Source: a virus
Direction: 5' to 3' (one strand)
Virus record (IMG/VR): IMGVR_UViG_3300035099_000049
Location: 1 to 34,037 of that record
Length of the DNA stretch: 34,037 bases
Below the pieces are notes generated by a model. That model ran no database searches, was not told the origin of the DNA, and saw nothing but the letters and a program-made list of their open reading frames with translations. The translations under genes and the position numbers were made by a program. Each line of letters begins with the position of its first letter. Within the stretch, counting starts at the first letter, position 1. This document shows positions 25,215-33,899 of this stretch, one piece after another.

Positions 25215-26147
25215 TTACGCTATCACGGAAGTTAAGAGATAACCAGCATAATTGCTTATGATATATGGGTCAAACATATCCTTAACTATAACCTTTATAC
25301 CTTCAGGGTCCATAAAGGTCTCAGTGAGAACCTTTCTATAGTTCTGTTTTCTGAAAGTATATCCCAAAGACATAGAATATAGCGAAGGTGACTTCTCAAC
25401 ATAAGCAACTATAGCAACATTATTCCATACCCAAGAAGTTGACCTTGTTAATCCTTCTTTTTCGGTATCATTAACCGCTTCGGCAACTATGAAGTTCTCT
25501 ACTTCAAATGCTCTCGCCATATCTTCATTGCGAGGAATACCGAACTGCGTATATTTGATAACATCTTTAAGCACAGGATGATTTCTCAAAGTATTAAAAA
25601 CATCTCTGGAAACCAACATCGTGTTCGGTAATCTTCCACAATCTTTCTGAATAACAACTTTTATGTCATCAACTTTCTTTATCGGGTTAGAGTTTGTATA
25701 ATCACTCCACGGTGAACCCTCACTAAGTGCCTCATAATGTCCACTTGCATAAGATGAAGTATCAGTTAGTTTGTTTGCAACTTCTATTTCATAATCAAGC
25801 ATTATTGCATTTGTTAACTTCCTAACTGCGTCTTTCTGCGGGTCAAGTGGAGTATCCGCATTATCAATTATTCTCTGCGGAACAAAAGTATGTAAACCTC
25901 TTTCCGTTAAAGAATAAGGATTTGCCTTATCTATTGTATATTCAAACTCTCTTGTCTCACCCTTTGGCGTCAATATCGTCTGATACTGCTTTAAATCCTG
26001 TCTTCCATAAATGAAATATTTGTCGCTTTCTTTCTTGACTGAAACAACAGGCATAATCTGTTCGGCGACAAAAGACGGATTGGTATATTCAACTGAAAGC
26101 ATTGTTAATGCTTGGTCAATGTGAACATCTTGAACTGTTGGTCTCAT
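25215..26147 (-). CDS. Major capsid protein (310 aa)
   Basis: HK97-fold capsid type: MRPTVQDVHIDQALTMLSVE, FVAEQIMPVVSVKKESDKYF, FVPQRIIDNADTPLDPQKDA, LMLDYEIEVANKL-like helix (IMLDYEIEVANKL), MLVSRDVFNTLRNHP, MARAFEVENFIVAEA, and VWNNVAIVAYVEKSPS. The order and E-loop/P-domain segments match capsids that have a separate decoration protein and scaffold-protease, both next door. AGGAGG site. Expect it to be the most abundant virion protein. Confidence 0.9.
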   Translation of the reverse strand: MRPTVQDVHIDQALTMLSVEYTNPSFVAEQIMPVVSVKKESDKYFIYGRQDLKQYQTILTPKGETREFEYTIDKANPYSLTERGLHTFVPQRIIDNADTPLDPQKDAVRKLTNAIMLDYEIEVANKLTDTSSYASGHYEALSEGSPWSDYTNSNPIKKVDDIKVVIQKDCGRLPNTMLVSRDVFNTLRNHPVLKDVIKYTQFGIPRNEDMARAFEVENFIVAEAVNDTEKEGLTRSTSWVWNNVAIVAYVEKSPSLYSMSLGYTFRKQNYRKVLTETFMDPEGIKVIVKDMFDPYIISNYAGYLLTSVIA

Positions 26148-26546: not shown

Positions 26547-27650
26547 CTATTTATTCATCATTTTCTTTTCTGCTTTCTTTAATGCCTCATCAAAACTTAT
26601 TTTCTCGGTTTCCTTTATGTGCTCGGCTAATATAGCCAATTCAACATTAGAGGCTTTATATCCCTGCGCTTCTATTGAAGCGATAACTTTGGATTTTTCC
26701 TCCTCTAATTTACTATCATTTTCTTTTGCAAGTTCCTTGAAAATAACAGGTTTTGATTTAGCAAATTCATCTATGAACTTAAAAAACATTTCTAATACTG
26801 AATATTCTTTCTCGCCAAATTTAATGAGCTCGTCCTTTTCGGAGAACTTCTCAACAAATTTGTCAATATATTCATCAAACTTTGGTAGCAATATCCCTCT
26901 GTTTTTCTCTTTAAGTTCATTGACCATATTTTTAATCTTTTCTTTTTCCATCTGCTTTACTTTATCCTCTAATTCTCTTAATTTTATTGCTTCTGGATTT
27001 TCGCTCATTTTATTACCTTCACTCTGCCTTGTCGCTTCCGCTTTCTGCTTTGCTTCGGGCGACATATGATGAGCATATATCCAACCGCATAACTGCTCTG
27101 GTGTATCTGTTACATCACTAACCGCGGAAACACACTCATCCCACCAACCTTTTGGCGGTCTCTGGTCATTTTCAAGTTTAAAATCTTTTATCGCCTGTTC
27201 ATTATCTTTTGCTATCTTTTTAATTTTCTCTTTGTCTTTAAAATCTAAATCTGGAACATTTTCGTCTGGCTTTTTCTCATCTTTTTGCTCATCATCTTTT
27301 GCTTTTTTCTCTTTCTCTTCTGTTATTTCTATCGGGATGCATTTATTCTGATCTTCATCCCATTTATAACCTTTCGGGCATATATGCCCTTGTATCTGGA
27401 CTCCTGCTTTTTCAGAAAGGCATTCTCCTTTTGCTTCATCCCATTTATAACCTTCAGGACATTCAATTGTCATTTCTTTTTTTTCATCTTTATCGCCTTC
27501 CTGCAATTTCATTATCCTTATCTTTGTTAAATATTCCGCAAGTTTGGAAGTATCCAACTCTTTGATTTTATCCTCTTCCATAAACTTCTTTATTGTTTCA
27601 ACACAACAAGGAACCATCTTTTTTACATCATCTAATGTCCATTTTTGCAT
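26547..27650 (-). CDS. Internal in-frame start: scaffold form (367 aa)
   Basis: Same stop and frame as the protease gene. The internal ATG 27650 (MQKWTLDDVKKMVPCC) has AGGAGGAG 3-4 nt upstream, a better ribosome site than the gene's own start. It keeps the CPxGYKWDE repeats and coiled coil but drops the protease. Nested scaffold genes inside protease genes (lambda C/Nu3) are known. Confidence 0.6.
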   Translation of the reverse strand: MQKWTLDDVKKMVPCCVETIKKFMEEDKIKELDTSKLAEYLTKIRIMKLQEGDKDEKKEMTIECPEGYKWDEAKGECLSEKAGVQIQGHICPKGYKWDEDQNKCIPIEITEEKEKKAKDDEQKDEKKPDENVPDLDFKDKEKIKKIAKDNEQAIKDFKLENDQRPPKGWWDECVSAVSDVTDTPEQLCGWIYAHHMSPEAKQKAEATRQSEGNKMSENPEAIKLRELEDKVKQMEKEKIKNMVNELKEKNRGILLPKFDEYIDKFVEKFSEKDELIKFGEKEYSVLEMFFKFIDEFAKSKPVIFKELAKENDSKLEEEKSKVIASIEAQGYKASNVELAILAEHIKETEKISFDEALKKAEKKMMNK

Positions 27651-28346
27651 AACTCCTCCTAATTCTTTTTCACTAAAATTAAGGACTTGATATTCGCCTT
27701 CTCTATTGTAGATTTTCTCAATATCACCAAGTCCTTTTATCGCCGGCAAATCTGCACCAAGCAGTGCAACTGCTCTTAATGTTTTTCCTACATCTTCATT
27801 TGTTTCAGGATGTTTGAAATTAGTATAGACCTCTGCACTTATTTTTGAATACGCTCTATTTTTTATGAGATTATAAATTTTTTCAGGAATATTAACAAAA
27901 TCTGCGAATAAAGTATCTCCTAATCTATATGCCTTTGAAATATATCCAATCGCTGGATAGCCATCTTCTTGTGCTAACTTTTGATCTTCACTATGTCCAA
28001 GTTTCAAAGGTGGCTCAACTAAATCTGTCTTTAATAAAGCATTTGTATTTTTCGCAATCTCATCTAAATCATCAAGAGTAAATTCAACATTATTACCATA
28101 CATATCAGTCCATTTGCCAACTTTTAAAATCGGGACCGCGTCTATTGAAAATAAATTTTCTTTTTTTCCTTTCTTCACTTTTACCTGCCCTGGAATATGG
28201 ACTTCATCAACTGTTGGATGTTGACCGCCCCATATTCCACCTGCGATATATCTCTGGCAATGCTCATAAGTCCAACCTTTCTTATCCATACAATCTTTAA
28301 TTAACTTTTCTAACTCTTTCTTTTCTGGCATATTTTTCGCCTTCAC
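26547..28346 (-). CDS. Mu-I-like prohead protease with nested scaffold (599 aa)
   Basis: N-terminal protease domain, Mu protein I-like: VPILKVGKWTDMYGNN, PPLKLGHSED (H118), and YSKISAEVY (S170), with ALLGADLPAIKGLGD. Residues 290-340 have two copies of CPxGYKWDExxxxC. From about 470 a charged coiled coil follows (LRELEDKVKQMEKEK), the scaffold part. GTG 28346 lies 5 nt after TAAAAT, with no Shine-Dalgarno, so it is leaderless. Two internal ATGs have good sites: 27650 (AGGAGGAG, 367 residues) and 27008 (GAAGGTAAT, 153 residues), so scaffold forms can be made separately. Confidence 0.85.
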   Translation of the reverse strand: MKAKNMPEKKELEKLIKDCMDKKGWTYEHCQRYIAGGIWGGQHPTVDEVHIPGQVKVKKGKKENLFSIDAVPILKVGKWTDMYGNNVEFTLDDLDEIAKNTNALLKTDLVEPPLKLGHSEDQKLAQEDGYPAIGYISKAYRLGDTLFADFVNIPEKIYNLIKNRAYSKISAEVYTNFKHPETNEDVGKTLRAVALLGADLPAIKGLGDIEKIYNREGEYQVLNFSEKELGGVMQKWTLDDVKKMVPCCVETIKKFMEEDKIKELDTSKLAEYLTKIRIMKLQEGDKDEKKEMTIECPEGYKWDEAKGECLSEKAGVQIQGHICPKGYKWDEDQNKCIPIEITEEKEKKAKDDEQKDEKKPDENVPDLDFKDKEKIKKIAKDNEQAIKDFKLENDQRPPKGWWDECVSAVSDVTDTPEQLCGWIYAHHMSPEAKQKAEATRQSEGNKMSENPEAIKLRELEDKVKQMEKEKIKNMVNELKEKNRGILLPKFDEYIDKFVEKFSEKDELIKFGEKEYSVLEMFFKFIDEFAKSKPVIFKELAKENDSKLEEEKSKVIASIEAQGYKASNVELAILAEHIKETEKISFDEALKKAEKKMMNK

Positions 28347-28806
28347 TTTTTATTTTAGCACGATTTGCCGACCCCTTGTCAATACCCTTTAACAAGTTAT
28401 CACTACCTAAATTATCCCAGCCGATATAAAGTGAAATAACATTTTTTACGAAGACAAATTCAAATGGTTCTAAATCAAATGTTATAAATTTAACCTTCTC
28501 ATTTAATTCTGAAATATTTTCAATATGCCAAAAAGTTTGATGCTCACATAAAATTTTAACATCATTATTTGGTTTTACTATTTTATATTTTTCATCTAAA
28601 AAATTATTCTTATTGCAAAAAATAAAATTATAATTAGTATTTTCAAAAATTTTCTTTTCTGTGATAATGCTTTTAAGATTTTTAATTTCACCAAAATCAG
28701 ATATTCGCCTTCTCAAATCATAAATCATAACTTTATCTGATTTGGTTAAATTTCCAACTCTCTGCCAACCGTTGAAAGTCCATATCTCATAATCTTGATA
28801 TATCAT
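28297..28806 (-). CDS. Hint-like small protein (169 aa)
   Basis: The start, EIWTFNGWQRVGNLTKSDKVMIYD (split here as EIWTFNGWQRVGNL, then KSDKVMIYD), is the first motif block of Hint/intein domains, but the catalytic first Cys/Ser is absent (it reads MIYQDYE). A middle HQTFWHIENI resembles the histidine block. The last 50 nt overlap the protease start and contain its promoter; the C-terminal tail (DKGSANRAKIKSEGEKYARK) may be a by-product of that overlap. AGGAGG-type site at the ATG. Degenerate Hint proteins are seen near phage head genes; no partner is known. Confidence 0.6.
   Translation of the reverse strand: MIYQDYEIWTFNGWQRVGNLTKSDKVMIYDLRRRISDFGEIKNLKSIITEKKIFENTNYNFIFCNKNNFLDEKYKIVKPNNDVKILCEHQTFWHIENISELNEKVKFITFDLEPFEFVFVKNVISLYIGWDNLGSDNLLKGIDKGSANRAKIKSEGEKYARKERVRKVN
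28352..28382 (-). promoter_or_regulatory. Promoter for the protease/scaffold and capsid operon, leaderless
   Basis: Minus strand TTGACA (28377-28382), 19-bp spacer ending TGC, TAAAAT (28352-28357), then 5 bases and the GTG at 28346. It lies inside the end of the Hint-like gene. The block tattgacaaggggt is shared exactly with the ATP-grasp promoter. Confidence 0.7.
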
Positions 28807-28817
28807 TTTTTACCTCC

Positions 28818-31013
28818 TCATTTTTCAAAACCTGGATCGGGCGACCAATTCGCTGGCAACTCATCTTCTTTCCATTGCTCGCCTTGAACAACAGGAATAA
28901 GCGTGCATCGGCAATTATATCCATTCGGCGGAGTTATTTTATCAACCACGGGATTACTCGCAGAAAAAACTCGCCCATCCAATATAGCGTGATTTGGTCT
29001 AACTCTATCATCCATAATTGCTGAATATTGATATGCTTCAACAAAGCCGTCTAATTCAGGGTCTTCATAATACATCCTTAAACCATAATTAAATGCTTCA
29101 TTAACATTTGTTCTAACTATTGTCTCTAACCTTGATGATGAATATCGCTCCTCATCATCTATCTCACCCTGCTTAATGTAATAATCAAATTTATCATTTG
29201 CTTGCTTTATAAAATCTTTTATTGTCCCACCTGATTTGATTACATTAAACAAAATCGGCTTTATTATCTTAAAAATATTATCCCTTTCAACCTGCGTCAT
29301 AAAATATGATTTCTGCTTGAAAAAATCCATAACTTCTTTTGGCGTCATTTTCCTAAAATCAATACTCTGAAACTTTAAAGATTTCTTTTTCTGACTTAAT
29401 ATCTGTTTTCCAACTCTATGAGATTGCTCATAAACCCTAACCAACATATCATAAAACTTTGTTTTCATATCACCTAAATATTTCAAATTCAAATCATCAA
29501 TCGCCTTCATATTCTTTTCATCAATAATCTTTTTCTTTTCTATTTGCTTATAAAGGTCTTGCAAGCTCTCTTCAATAACTTTCGCTAAATCTATTGTTAA
29601 TATCCCTGTTTGGTTTTCTATTATATCTCGCATATCAATAAAATTAACCTTCTCTTCATACTTTGTGAATGTTCGTCTTTTAACCCCTGTAAATATTTTA
29701 TTCTTTTCAGCAAAGCCAATTAAATTAACATCTGCTCCATCTTGTTCTATTGTATTTCCTTGATTTTGATTTTCGTTAATTTCCCTTTCTGGCAATTTTA
29801 GCCAAGCCCTGATTTTATTTTCGTCCTCTGGTATCGGCTTTAATACCCCGTTCTGAACTCCAGCATAATATTTGTCTATAATCTGAACAATATCATCTTG
29901 GACTAATGGCTTGAATGCGAATTTTGGATAATAATCAACATTAGCAAAATTGTAATCAATCAATCTTTTAATTAACTGATTATTTATAACTTTTTCAGCG
30001 ACATCTTTCCCTAATTGCTCAACATAGAATAAAAGAATATCAAAATGGACTTTACCAAGTGCATAACTTGAACTCCCGCTCCCAGCATTACCTGTTAATG
30101 TCTGCCCTAATATCGTCCTTCTTATTTGCTCATTTATTGCTTCTATCGCTTTATCAAAAGGACTTCCGCCGGTATTATCATTTTTCATTATTTCTAATTC
30201 AACATTATCAGGAATAATTATGTTTGTTTCCATTCTAAACTGATTTAAAACATTTTTAATTCGGTTCATCGCCTCATTATTCTGAAAATAATTGAACGGA
30301 ACTTTCGCTTTTGTTAATGGCATCCCGTATTTTTCGAGATAAACGCCCCAGGCTTTAATTAACGTCTGTTTAATCATCCACAATTCATATAAACTTCTTA
30401 AAACTGATTTGCCCCATACATTTTCAAATTCTTTATTAAATGAATAAATCAAAAACTTTTCCACAGGATATTTTTTGCCATAATCATAAGGACTAATGTT
30501 TATTATTCCATCTGGTCTAATATTTCCAAAATCATCTGCTTGAACATTGAATTTATCTGGATTTTTCTGCTTTATATTACCAATAATGATTTTCCCTTTG
30601 TATCTTCCTTTATCCTCAACTCGCCAAACTAATTCGTTTATGCTAACTCCATATTCTAATGCTCCCATTATTTCCCTTAAATCGTCATCAAAAGAACATT
30701 CAAGATTTGAAAGGTTATAATCAACAAAATCTCTTAATTCAATATCTTTTGGGTTATCACTTGCTGGCTGTATCTCCCATCCTGTGGATAATCTAATTGT
30801 TTTTAATGTATTTATGCAAGAATAAATCTCCGCATCCGTCATCATTTTGCGATATAGTTTTAATTGCTTTGCCTGAATAAGTTCATCTTCAAACCAAGGG
30901 GTTAAACCATATCGTCTATATATCGCCTCATCATCTGTAGCAACTTCTATATCAACATACGGCTTTGTCGGTTTTTGCTTATTGAAAAATGCTATTATCT
31001 TATCAAAAATCAT
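28818..31013 (-). CDS. Portal protein fused to MuF head-morphogenesis domain (731 aa)
   Basis: Portal part (about 1-430, gp29/DUF935 type): LTPWFEDELIQAKQLKLYRK, MTDAEIYSCINTLKTIRLST, LWMIKQTLIKAWGVYLEKYG, MPLTKAKVP, and QTLTGNAGSGSSSYALGKVH. MuF part (about 590-725): RLETIVRTNVNEAFNYGLRM, AYQYSAIMDDRVRPNHAILDG, and TPPNGYNCRCTLIPV with the paired cysteines. In Mu these are two genes. The fusion puts head-filling and morphogenesis functions on one chain. Charged helix region between (430-590). GGAG site before the ATG; overlaps the ATP-grasp stop by ATGA. Confidence 0.92.
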   Translation of the reverse strand: MIFDKIIAFFNKQKPTKPYVDIEVATDDEAIYRRYGLTPWFEDELIQAKQLKLYRKMMTDAEIYSCINTLKTIRLSTGWEIQPASDNPKDIELRDFVDYNLSNLECSFDDDLREIMGALEYGVSINELVWRVEDKGRYKGKIIIGNIKQKNPDKFNVQADDFGNIRPDGIINISPYDYGKKYPVEKFLIYSFNKEFENVWGKSVLRSLYELWMIKQTLIKAWGVYLEKYGMPLTKAKVPFNYFQNNEAMNRIKNVLNQFRMETNIIIPDNVELEIMKNDNTGGSPFDKAIEAINEQIRRTILGQTLTGNAGSGSSSYALGKVHFDILLFYVEQLGKDVAEKVINNQLIKRLIDYNFANVDYYPKFAFKPLVQDDIVQIIDKYYAGVQNGVLKPIPEDENKIRAWLKLPEREINENQNQGNTIEQDGADVNLIGFAEKNKIFTGVKRRTFTKYEEKVNFIDMRDIIENQTGILTIDLAKVIEESLQDLYKQIEKKKIIDEKNMKAIDDLNLKYLGDMKTKFYDMLVRVYEQSHRVGKQILSQKKKSLKFQSIDFRKMTPKEVMDFFKQKSYFMTQVERDNIFKIIKPILFNVIKSGGTIKDFIKQANDKFDYYIKQGEIDDEERYSSSRLETIVRTNVNEAFNYGLRMYYEDPELDGFVEAYQYSAIMDDRVRPNHAILDGRVFSASNPVVDKITPPNGYNCRCTLIPVVQGEQWKEDELPANWSPDPGFEK

Positions 31014-32293
31014 AGTGAACTCCTGAAAGGCAAGTTATATTCTTTTTCCCCTTGCTCAATATCTTCCTTTATTGACATTAAACCTGTCATATTCTTTTGA
31101 AGTTCAAATCCACTAACATAATCTAACCGCTCATTGACTTGGCTTATAACCTCATCAATGCTATCACCAAATCCAACAATAGAACAAACACTTAAAAAAC
31201 CGGGAATTGCGAAAAATCTATCATCTTTTTTCATAACTCTTCTAAATTTGACATATGGAAGTATATCTTTATCTTTGATTATTATCTCCATCCAATTATC
31301 ATTAGCCCAATCGCTATCAAGTGCCACACCACCACCATATTTATATTTTGGTTCTAAATCTATTAGCTTGCCATTAACACCCGCCTCATAGATAAACTCT
31401 TGTAAATTATCATAAATTTCCAACTGAACTGCTGTCGGAACAGGCATAGGACTGCGCACAGTTGGGTCTATTAAATATCCCTCACCTTCTTTCGTTACTA
31501 TAACCTCTGTTGAGAAAAAAGACCTTATTTTGTTTTCTTTGAAGAAATTTGAAAGTTTATCATTAACATTTCTTACTGCCTCTGGGATATCTTCATATCT
31601 CTGAACACTCGCTATATATCCGCTTCCCTTTTTCTCATAAGCAAATAAACCATAATTCGGATATTGCCCATCAACAACAAAACCGTCATAACCCGGTTCA
31701 AGCCCATCAATCTTTTTTTCAACAAGGAAATCAATTCTATCTTTTGCCTGCCCTAATTTTTCTGACATATAATCAAGAAAAACTTCCGATGTCTCATAAT
31801 CTTTTGAATAAAATGTTTCAATAAGTCCTCTAAAAGAATTTAATTTAACATAAACATCTGGATTATTTTTTAGATATTCTTTTAGATTATCAACCCCTGT
31901 TATTTTTATTGATTGTTGAACAGGAAGTCCGACTTGTGCTTGTAATTGCCTTCCAAACACTCTGTCATTTTCTAACCATTCACCAAACCCTGGAGCAAAG
32001 ACATTATATCCTTTTGATTTCAAATATTCAAATATGTCTTGTGAATATGTGTCAAATGTAGCGATGATATCCACATCATCAACATAATCCCAAAAAGAAT
32101 TAACTTGGAAAACTCCTTCATCTTCAAAACCCATTCCGATTAAAGATTTATTTAATGTCGGGAATGCGTCCTGCCAGGGGACATAATATAAAACTTTCTT
32201 AAATTTCTCCACTAATTTCCTTGCAACTTCTAAACATAAGCCGTAATCATAAATAAGAATAGTTCTATCGTTTAGATATGACTTCGTTTTCAC
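31010..32293 (-). CDS. ATP-grasp ligase-like protein in the head module (427 aa)
   Basis: Residues 10-100 are a Rossmann-like pre-ATP-grasp domain (TILIYDYGLCLEVARKLVEK). Residues 105-300 are ATP-grasp: WLENDRVFGRQLQAQVGLPV, VYVKLNSFRG (K150), DFLVEKKIDGLEPGYDGFVV (E192), and STEVIVTKEGEGYLIDPTVR (E263, D276). The C-terminus (VGFGDSIDEVISQVNERLDY) matches the purine-enzyme type (PurD-like). The family makes a carboxylate-amine bond using ATP. No purine operon surrounds it; its neighbours are terminase and portal, so it may modify a virion protein or metabolite. Start is GTG 32293, part of ATGTGA, at a leaderless promoter. Confidence 0.85.
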   Translation of the reverse strand: MKTKSYLNDRTILIYDYGLCLEVARKLVEKFKKVLYYVPWQDAFPTLNKSLIGMGFEDEGVFQVNSFWDYVDDVDIIATFDTYSQDIFEYLKSKGYNVFAPGFGEWLENDRVFGRQLQAQVGLPVQQSIKITGVDNLKEYLKNNPDVYVKLNSFRGLIETFYSKDYETSEVFLDYMSEKLGQAKDRIDFLVEKKIDGLEPGYDGFVVDGQYPNYGLFAYEKKGSGYIASVQRYEDIPEAVRNVNDKLSNFFKENKIRSFFSTEVIVTKEGEGYLIDPTVRSPMPVPTAVQLEIYDNLQEFIYEAGVNGKLIDLEPKYKYGGGVALDSDWANDNWMEIIIKDKDILPYVKFRRVMKKDDRFFAIPGFLSVCSIVGFGDSIDEVISQVNERLDYVSGFELQKNMTGLMSIKEDIEQGEKEYNLPFRSSL

Positions 32294-32300
32294 ATAAAAA

Positions 32301-32331
32301 ATTTTAGCATAAAGAATATACCCCTTGTCAA
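32301..32331 (-). promoter_or_regulatory. Promoter for the ATP-grasp and portal operon, leaderless
   Basis: Minus strand TTGACA (32326-32331), 19-bp spacer ending TGC, TAAAAT (32301-32306), then 5 bases and ATGTGA. The ATG (32295) stops at once, and the GTG at 32293 overlaps it. The -35 overlaps the terminase stop codon. Confidence 0.7.
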
Positions 32332-32861
32332 TAGTTCTGATAAAATTCTAAAAATGCTTCAAGTCCCTTTTTGTCTGTTTTCCCTTCTTGATGATAATGA
32401 GTATATAAAGCATATCGCTCTGCGTCCATTAAATGGTCGTTAAATTTCACTGGTTTGTCAAGAACATTGCCTTTCTTATCAATTTGCCATTTGTAAAATT
32501 TTCGCTCTTTATTAAGATTAACATTTTCATTACAAGAAAAGATTTCCAAGCGTTTAACAAAATCAATTCCATCCTTAACTGACTTATTCGCTGGTTTAAT
32601 GTTAAACCCGGCTCTATATATCTCCTCTATTCTATTTGTGTCTTCTGCATCCGCATAAATAGGAAATTGCCTATAACTTATAGGTATTTTCTGCTTCATT
32701 AATTCAATTAAATCTGCATTAGTTAAATGCGTCTGATATATTATTTCTCTTTCATAGAATACTTTATCTTTAATTCTTATCTCTGTTAATGCGGAAGGGC
32801 TATTATATCCAAAATCCAAATATGACCTCATCGCATTGATTATAATCGGGATAACTTTCAA
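32328..32861 (-). CDS. Terminase large subunit, C-terminal nuclease part (frame +1 of the N-terminal part)
   Basis: The sequence SYLDFGYNSPSALTEIRI matches the start of the terminase RNase-H-like nuclease (LDFGYNSPSALTE). It then carries YQTHLTNADLIELM, FPIYADAEDTNRIEEIYRAG with the second acid, SVKDGIDFVKRLEIF, and FNDHLMDAERYALY with the last aspartate. These are the normal terminase nuclease acids. It overlaps the ATPase frame by 59 nt. The first ATG in frame near the junction is 32831. The frame needs a +1 shift from the ATPase part, or a lost 5-base repeat. See the ATPase entry. Confidence 0.85.
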   Translation of the reverse strand: MKVIPIIINAMRSYLDFGYNSPSALTEIRIKDKVFYEREIIYQTHLTNADLIELMKQKIPISYRQFPIYADAEDTNRIEEIYRAGFNIKPANKSVKDGIDFVKRLEIFSCNENVNLNKERKFYKWQIDKKGNVLDKPVKFNDHLMDAERYALYTHYHQEGKTDKKGLEAFLEFYQNY

Positions 32862-33543
32862 ATGGTATTATTTCATATATCTGATAAATTAGATTAGTTA
32901 TTTCTGCAAACTCTCCAAGTCCGTATATCTTCCAATATACAGGGTCTAAATCTTGCAATTGCTCTATCATATTGATGTATTCTTGCGAAAGAAAAGGATT
33001 GTCCTTGTAAGTGCTCTTGATAACTTCAATTTCATTGTTACCGAGAAGTTTTTCATTTGCCCAGCAAATAATCGGGTTCATCGCCATAATCAACTTATTC
33101 GGCTGTTTATCTTGTGATGGAGCGGATAACCTTAATCTTAATGTGATATAATCCTCGTAATCAAACTCATTTAGTTCTTCCATAAAGATGTAGTTAAATT
33201 CTGTTGATTTGATTTTATGAGGGTCATCTATTGAAGTGAAATAAATGAAACTTTGTGAGGGTAAAAATTTAATTATCCTGTCTTGCTTATTTATGTCGCA
33301 TAAAGAAAAAATATTGTATTGTTCCAGCATTTCAATAAATGGCTGGTAAGTGCTAATCTTTAATGCTGGAAGTGTTTTTCGGCATATCAAAATCTTTTTA
33401 TTTTTTTCATTAGTCAATTTTGAAATTAGATATTGTAAGATAGAATATGACTTTGAAGACCTTGCACCGCCGATATTAAATATTTGATTTTTCTTTGATA
33501 ATGCTATTTGCTTGAAAACTCTCGTTACGGCAATGTCTTTCAT
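32803..33543 (-). CDS. Terminase large subunit, N-terminal ATPase part
   Basis: The motor ATPase that packs DNA into the head. Walker A is FNIGGARSSKSYS (G-x-x-x-S-K-S), Walker B FNYIFMEELNEF, and the coupling motif KLIMAMNPI. It stops at FGFWI*, 2 residues after the point where DNA-packaging terminases read I-F-G-L-D-F-G-Y. The C-terminal nuclease follows in the +1 frame. The DNA here has GGATT once; two copies (GGATTGGATT) would restore the frame and the missing LDFGY link. So either an assembly or true 5-base contraction, or a programmed shift. Overlaps the small subunit by ATGA. Confidence 0.88.
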   Translation of the reverse strand: MKDIAVTRVFKQIALSKKNQIFNIGGARSSKSYSILQYLISKLTNEKNKKILICRKTLPALKISTYQPFIEMLEQYNIFSLCDINKQDRIIKFLPSQSFIYFTSIDDPHKIKSTEFNYIFMEELNEFDYEDYITLRLRLSAPSQDKQPNKLIMAMNPIICWANEKLLGNNEIEVIKSTYKDNPFLSQEYINMIEQLQDLDPVYWKIYGLGEFAEITNLIYQIYEIIPFESYPDYNQCDEVIFGFWI

Positions 33544-33899
33544 TTATTTTCATTTTTTTCTTTAAGAACAAATCTGATTGGTTCAAACTTAACCTCACCT
33601 AAATGCTCCATCTTGTTTATATTCTGCCAAGTATCGCCATAGCGATTTACCAAAAAGAAAATGCAAGCGGTTATATTTCCGTTAAGCGCCGCATTGTAAA
33701 GTGCTTTGGTTATTGATGTCTTTGCTAATAATTGCCCTTCTTTTATTGCATTAGCAAGTTTATCATCTTTGGATTTCCTCTTTGATAATGTGACCTTATT
33801 TATCCCAAGAAGAATAGCTATCTCTTCCTCTTTGAGACCTAACATCGCATATTTTTTAACCATCTCATAATCTATTTGTGTTTTCTTTCCTTGTGCCAT
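33540..33899 (-). CDS. Terminase small subunit (119 aa)
   Basis: DNA-recognition part of the terminase. N-terminal HTH: YEMVKKYAMLGLKEEEIAIL, LGINKVTLSKRKSKDD. Then AIKEGQLLAKTSITKALYNA, and ITACIFFLVNRYGDTWQNI, the usual end block of small terminases (A-x-x-F-x-L-x-N-R). The ATG at 33899 begins one base after the methyltransferase stop, with AAAGG upstream, so it is likely coupled to that gene. Overlaps the large subunit by ATGA. Confidence 0.88.
   Translation of the reverse strand: MAQGKKTQIDYEMVKKYAMLGLKEEEIAILLGINKVTLSKRKSKDDKLANAIKEGQLLAKTSITKALYNAALNGNITACIFFLVNRYGDTWQNINKMEHLGEVKFEPIRFVLKEKNENK

Follow-up and report, generated by a model that had tools for sequence, protein, structure and literature searches.

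ATP-grasp ligases in phages

Ligases of the ATP-grasp type convert a carboxylate to an acyl phosphate, which then reacts with a nucleophile, in most cases an amine. Several described groups can be compared with the protein analyzed here: PurD (TIGR00877; Pfam GARS_A/GARS_C), PurT and PurK, and two sets of ligases known from phages. One of the latter is the R2K clade of ATP-grasp proteins (CDC123, DUF4343), which also occurs in phages and whose members are predicted peptide ligases (PMC4431377); the other comprises the amidoligase, GATase and ATP-grasp genes of LUZ24-like and phiEco32 phages (PMC3890496, PMC10580990). The literature we searched contained no description of an ATP-grasp enzyme between terminase and portal.

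R2K proteins have a second conserved Lys/Arg following the lysine of strand 2 and have lost the linker Lys. The ligase shares with this clade its occurrence in phages and, with R155 following K150, a basic residue in the corresponding loop, but differs in keeping the basic R111 at the linker position before the ATP-grasp core and in its full-length PurD fold; we saw no match to an R2K model. With the LUZ24-like and phiEco32 ligases it has in common that it is a phage-encoded ligase, yet these are other proteins, the reported case being shorter (291 aa). In UFV-P2 the ATP-grasp gene belongs to an early module, whereas here it is part of the head operon.

The ligase gene and its surroundings

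The window, by which we mean the whole stretch of DNA analyzed, is a 34,037-base virus record obtained from environmental DNA. The features relevant here are:

33540..33899, minus strand: terminase small subunit (phrog_309)
32803..33543, minus strand: terminase large subunit, ATPase part (Terminase_3)
32328..32861, minus strand: nuclease part of the terminase large subunit (Terminase_3C), in another frame than the ATPase part
32301..32331, minus strand: promoter-like motif (TTGACA at 32331-32326, extended -10 TGCTAAAAT at 32309-32301, spacing 19)
31010..32293, minus strand: gene of the PurD-fold ATP-grasp ligase (427 aa, GTG start)
31010..31013, minus strand: ATGA in which the stop codon of the ligase overlaps the start codon of the portal gene (ATG at 31013-31011)
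28818..31013, minus strand: portal-MuF fusion, 731 aa (Portal_Mu E 3e-67, Phage_Mu_F E 3e-19)
26547..28346, minus strand: head maturation protease (phrog_976)
25215..26147, minus strand: major head protein (phrog_1005)

Read downstream along the minus strand, the genes of the small and the large terminase subunit come first, then those of the ligase and portal-MuF; after a gene of 169 aa follow the head maturation protease, another small protein and the major head protein. The ligase ORF extends from the GTG at 32293-32291 to the stop at 31012-31010. It is complete and lies within the head operon between terminase (Terminase_3/Terminase_3C upstream) and portal-MuF (Portal_Mu and Phage_Mu_F downstream), as had been read from the DNA alone in the original prediction. 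This had also proposed an overlap of the ligase stop with the portal-MuF start, which we recover as the ATGA, with an AGGAG inside the ligase gene just 5' of the portal start, and the lack of any other purine gene, of which the scanned ORFs of the window indeed contain none.

Three further features of the window were observed along the way. Compared with the related loci L002 and L005, the terminase large subunit (32328-33543) has a 5-nt deletion at the nuclease motif FGLDFGYN, which divides it into two ORFs; this is an error of the assembly, or else the terminase of this genome is defective. The 169-aa gene (28297-28806), in the interval between portal-MuF and protease, gave no family match and, among the relatives compared, is restricted to the window, L002 and L003. 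Positions 2-1201, at the end of the window, encode a fusion of a ParB_N domain with an N6/N4 DNA methylase, whose homologue in L002 is located just upstream of terminase.

The promoter-like motif overlaps the terminase stop, with the ligase GTG ~8 nt downstream. Its TTGACA and TGCTAAAAT elements are identical in L002 and L005, the spacer bases differing between the window and L005; a promoter scan made no call at this motif, and we found no terminator at the 3' end of the ligase gene. Since the motif is retained in L005, which has no ligase gene, it probably serves the head operon. Of the leaderless promoter of its own that had been ascribed to the ligase, the motif at a short distance before the GTG is thus present, but it is probably not specific to this gene.

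Fold and family assignment

Searches with the single sequence against Pfam, PHROGs, NCBIfam and PDB gave nothing decisive: Pfam-A had no match above its cut-off, and the purD model of NCBIfam (TIGR00877) matched with an E-value of 5.8e-5 and 22.1 bits, against a cut-off of 288. The family profile was decisive, matching PurD (2yw2) in PDB with an E-value of 7e-15. A structure model built with 22 aligned family members (alignment A3) was predicted with a pLDDT of 92.9 and a pTM of 0.92. In Foldseek searches with this model, fifteen PurD chains came out on top (2yw2: E 1.3e-21, TM 0.74), and VIA-align gave a Z-score of 31.8 over 377 residues for PurD, compared to ~25 for PurT and PurK. The PurD-like ATP-grasp fold suggested by the original prediction is therefore the one that structure prediction and profile comparison agree on. 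K150, E199, E263 and D276 are present in every member aligned, and once the family profile and the model are used, we regard the ATP-grasp identity as certain.

The ligase resembles PurD over its full length, including the N- and C-terminal domains and their order, at ~14-17% identity over ~380 residues, and shares with it the lysine and glutamate of the ATP site as well as the E/D and R of the metal-binding strand. It differs in lacking the GGREHA loop and the ExNxRxGDPE motif (alignment A9), in scoring far under the curated PurD cut-off, in having an additional metal glutamate, E263, where E. coli PurD has Gly273, and in a FRGxxET loop after K150, which replaces the usual glycine-rich loop of ATP-grasp proteins and makes a changed chemistry possible. 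Judged by its sequence, the ligase belongs to a viral family of its own and is most likely no GAR synthetase (PurD).

ATP site and substrate site

We computed equivalent positions from an alignment with E. coli PurD, PurT and PurK. The PurT residues R114, K155, E195, E203, E267 and E279, which we take to be its ATP and Mg ligands, align to R111, K150, E192, E199, E263 and D276 of the ligase; in PurK, the counterparts of R111, K150, E199, E263 and D276 are R80, K120, E161, E226 and E238. K150, E199, E263, D276 and R280 are identical in 22 of the 22 members aligned and R111 nearly so, and the catalytic-type residues are invariant across the family down to 29% identity. A loss of the ATP- and metal-binding residues in relatives, which had been named as the observation that would speak against a ligase, was looked for, and the residues are kept.

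In contrast, the PurT residues which presumably bind the ribonucleotide GAR (E22, E82, D286, K355, R362, R363) are for the most part absent from the ligase: five of the six (E22, D286, K355, R362, R363) are not kept and the column of E82 is variable. The alignments thus indicate an ATP site that is retained and a substrate site that is new. The dN/dS of the ligase is ~0.06-0.08 (three pairs), similar to that of the portal, which shows strong purifying selection on the gene.

Extent of the family

A degenerate DNA scan of IMG/VR for GYLIDPTxR returned 17 contigs, 15 of them with a relative. In a second motif scan, for Kx(N/S)xFRGxxET, all newly fetched loci (66 of 66) were family members, and a profile-based scan also widened the membership. 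Together, the three scans yielded about 95 distinct IMG/VR contigs, a lower bound because the scans need exact motifs.

Outside this resource, tblastn searches with four probes (the window protein and three members) found no relative in 50,697 deposited phage records, the viral structures of BFVD had no full-length match (best TM 0.46), and there is no PHROG for the family. A plasmid collection gave one weak match to a cellular PurD-like protein, from Roseomonas (E 0.03) and not in a phage, and a genome-contig collection scanned with two motifs gave no relative; cellular members beyond the reach of those two motifs may exist. In the sources we searched, we found no description of this viral family, of the remodelling of its site or of its repeated placement in the head module; the fold and the chemistry are already known. 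A family of about 95 contigs for which four probes have no match among deposited phages, and which has no PHROG and no full-length BFVD match, represents a sizeable gap in phage annotation, and genes of this family could be miscalled as purine auxiliary genes.

Genomic neighbourhoods

Within the portal-MuF clade, the order terminase large subunit (TerL), ligase, portal is found in the window, L002, L009, L024, L025, L026/27/28, L030, L123 and L125. L003 has ligase followed by portal on a contig truncated on the 5' side of the ligase, and in L029 the ligase comes after the portal. Other lineages have unrelated portal types: L032/33/34 have the ligase flanked by TerL and a T7-type portal (phrog_332), L059/70/93 have portal and MuF before the ligase and the protease after it, and in L094 and L079 a third portal type (phrog_156) is two to four genes off. 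A head protease directly follows the ligase in L080 and L112. The association with portals, which the original prediction had left to a neighbourhood search, thus recurs in several lineages, and this recurrence argues that the ligase is not a randomly placed purine gene.

In a large group of loci, the ligase is near TerL and a large protein we call c2. The latter looks portal-like by eye, but PHROG, PDB, phage-record and profile-profile tests gave no confirmation; c2 is therefore counted as a candidate portal only.

Other members are located elsewhere, for instance beside a ParB-like gene (L035) or a tail-fibre gene (L044). In a first count after clustering at 50%, 17 of the 25 clusters had no recognised portal, terminase or candidate portal nearby, in part because their proteins match no known family; head genes came to light for a few in subsequent scans. 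A rough Poisson test, assuming ~60 genes per genome and random placement, gave a P of 0.09 for confirmed portals only and of 0.002 with candidate portals, so that the enrichment of the ligase beside portals is suggestive. Across ten phages, the identities of ligase and portal co-vary (Mantel r 0.89, p 0.0002), with the ligase usually the more conserved, which is consistent with long co-inheritance.

Among the relatives compared, we found no gene that strictly co-occurs with the ligase, and none of the neighbouring genes points to its target. A small protein whose sequence contains HEL(I/F/V)E is found repeatedly in distant ligase loci (L035, L036, L037, L038, L039-L046, L049, L112), in several of them directly adjoining the ligase; one member was searched against PHROG and had no match.

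Natural deletions

In L005, terminase and portal are retained at 89-90% identity, with only 63 bp in between and no ligase. This remnant contains the promoter-like motif and the peptide M-K-T-K-S-F-R-S-S-L-stop, in which the first five residues of the ligase ORF are followed immediately by its last five. A second pair of close relatives consists of L123, with the ligase, and L121, without it; their TerL is 92% and their portal 93% identical, and at the junction in L121 the start codon abuts the last ~45 bases of the ligase gene. Read from the sequences, both junctions are at repeats of 3-4 bases (TCAT, GAA). Among the relatives compared, no other genes were lost alongside the ligase, and further portal-MuF relatives without a ligase between TerL and portal are L122, L126, L128, L133, L135, L136 and L137/138. 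With each of the two deletions represented by one assembled contig, these comparisons indicate that the gene is dispensable and has been cleanly deleted at least twice. Its deletion in two near relatives shows that the ligase is not an obligatory head component.

The ligase thereby resembles morons, accessory genes inserted among the late genes of phages, in being present or absent between close relatives that are otherwise syntenic, with the flanking genes kept (L005 against the window and L002, L121 against L123). It differs from them in that its promoter is probably common to the operon, a terminator of its own was not found, and it has co-diverged with the portal over a long time.

Possible function

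We think it reasonably probable that the protein is a catalytically competent, accessory, late-expressed ATP-grasp carboxylate-amine ligase from a phage-specific family, with a PurD fold and a non-purine substrate, a protein or peptide being favoured over a free metabolite. By analogy with known ATP-grasp enzymes, a chemistry that the conserved site makes likely here, ATP held by the two lobes would transfer phosphate to a carboxylate; attack of an amine on the resulting acyl phosphate would then form an amide or peptide-like bond. The ribose-phosphate pocket of PurD and PurT is remodelled in the ligase, arguing against a purine intermediate as the substrate. We prefer a protein or peptide as acceptor because the gene is expressed with virion genes, has no biosynthetic partners, and is dispensable to the phage; an amino acid or peptide might thus be ligated to a virion or host protein. 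The ligase would be accessory cargo, expressed late with the head genes from the terminase-portal junction, and a usefulness under some conditions only could explain both its maintenance by selection in many phages and its clean deletion in others. In this scheme, we infer the ligase activity, the type of bond, the protein target and the conditional benefit.

A more specialized role, in which the ligase is a dedicated head enzyme acting covalently on a virion protein such as the portal or MuF, perhaps attaching amino acids to a tail, and thereby adjusts packaging, ejection or the stability of the virion, is possible, but we hold it only tentatively. Such an enzyme would be expected where the ligase is found, near portal and head genes despite different portal families and gene orders, diverging in step with the portal, and coupled to it in a late operon through the ATGA. 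However, L121 evidently has a whole head module without a ligase, many members have no recognised portal nearby, and the enrichment beside portals is only suggestive. The broader proposition that widespread, undescribed PurD-derived ligases modify virions post-translationally, attaching amino acids or a small group covalently to the portal or a different head protein as the head is assembled, and are gained and lost by need, appears doubtful to us.

The ligase could instead make a small metabolite or act on the host by changing its envelope or one of its proteins, for instance to keep out competing phages, which we consider unlikely. The moron-like presence and absence of the gene would fit this, and there is a precedent in the amidoligases of phages such as phiEco32, for which work cited in PMC10580990 proposed a change to the cell wall and a block to superinfection. 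Yet the window contains no partner biosynthetic genes, and in most annotated cases the ligase belongs to the late head module and not to an early region.

It is very improbable that the gene is an auxiliary purine gene, i.e. a divergent phage GAR synthetase feeding nucleotide synthesis. PurD is its closest fold and viral genes annotated as phosphoribosylamine-glycine ligase are reported to be virus-enriched in oceans (PMC11360552), but the GGREHA loop, the ExNxRxGDPE motif and the GAR-binding residues of PurT are all absent, the metal pair E263/D276 is of the PurT/PurK type, the purD score is a small fraction of its cut-off, and the scanned ORFs contain no further purine gene. The routine, randomly placed purine gene that had been raised as an objection is therefore not what this locus carries. 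A non-catalytic structural protein reusing the ATP-grasp fold, as had also been entertained, would fit a place among head genes but is likewise very improbable, considering the invariant catalytic residues, a dN/dS of about 0.07 and the tolerance of clean deletions.

For the accessory ligase that we favour, the natural deletion pairs (window and L002 against L005, L123 against L121), together with the clear catalytic residues, make the ligation target directly testable.

Inteins and a CRISPR array

Two different inteins interrupt ligase genes (L125:2661-4988 and L055:3-1871), one directly after DxTxR and one ending before PWQDAFP near codon 39. The portal-MuF ORF of L003 (1600-4791) has an intein-like insertion of ~330 residues in its MuF part, and portal ORFs of comparable length are present in L024 (1095 aa) and L128 (1083 aa). 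At the start of L003 (1-437), seven copies of a CRISPR repeat (CTTGCAATCCTACCTATGAGGAATTGAAAC), which was not found in the genome-contig collection, follow each other at ~66-nt spacing, and codon 40 of the ligase gene comes directly after them, as though the assembly had jumped from a CRISPR array to the phage via a spacer targeting the ligase gene.
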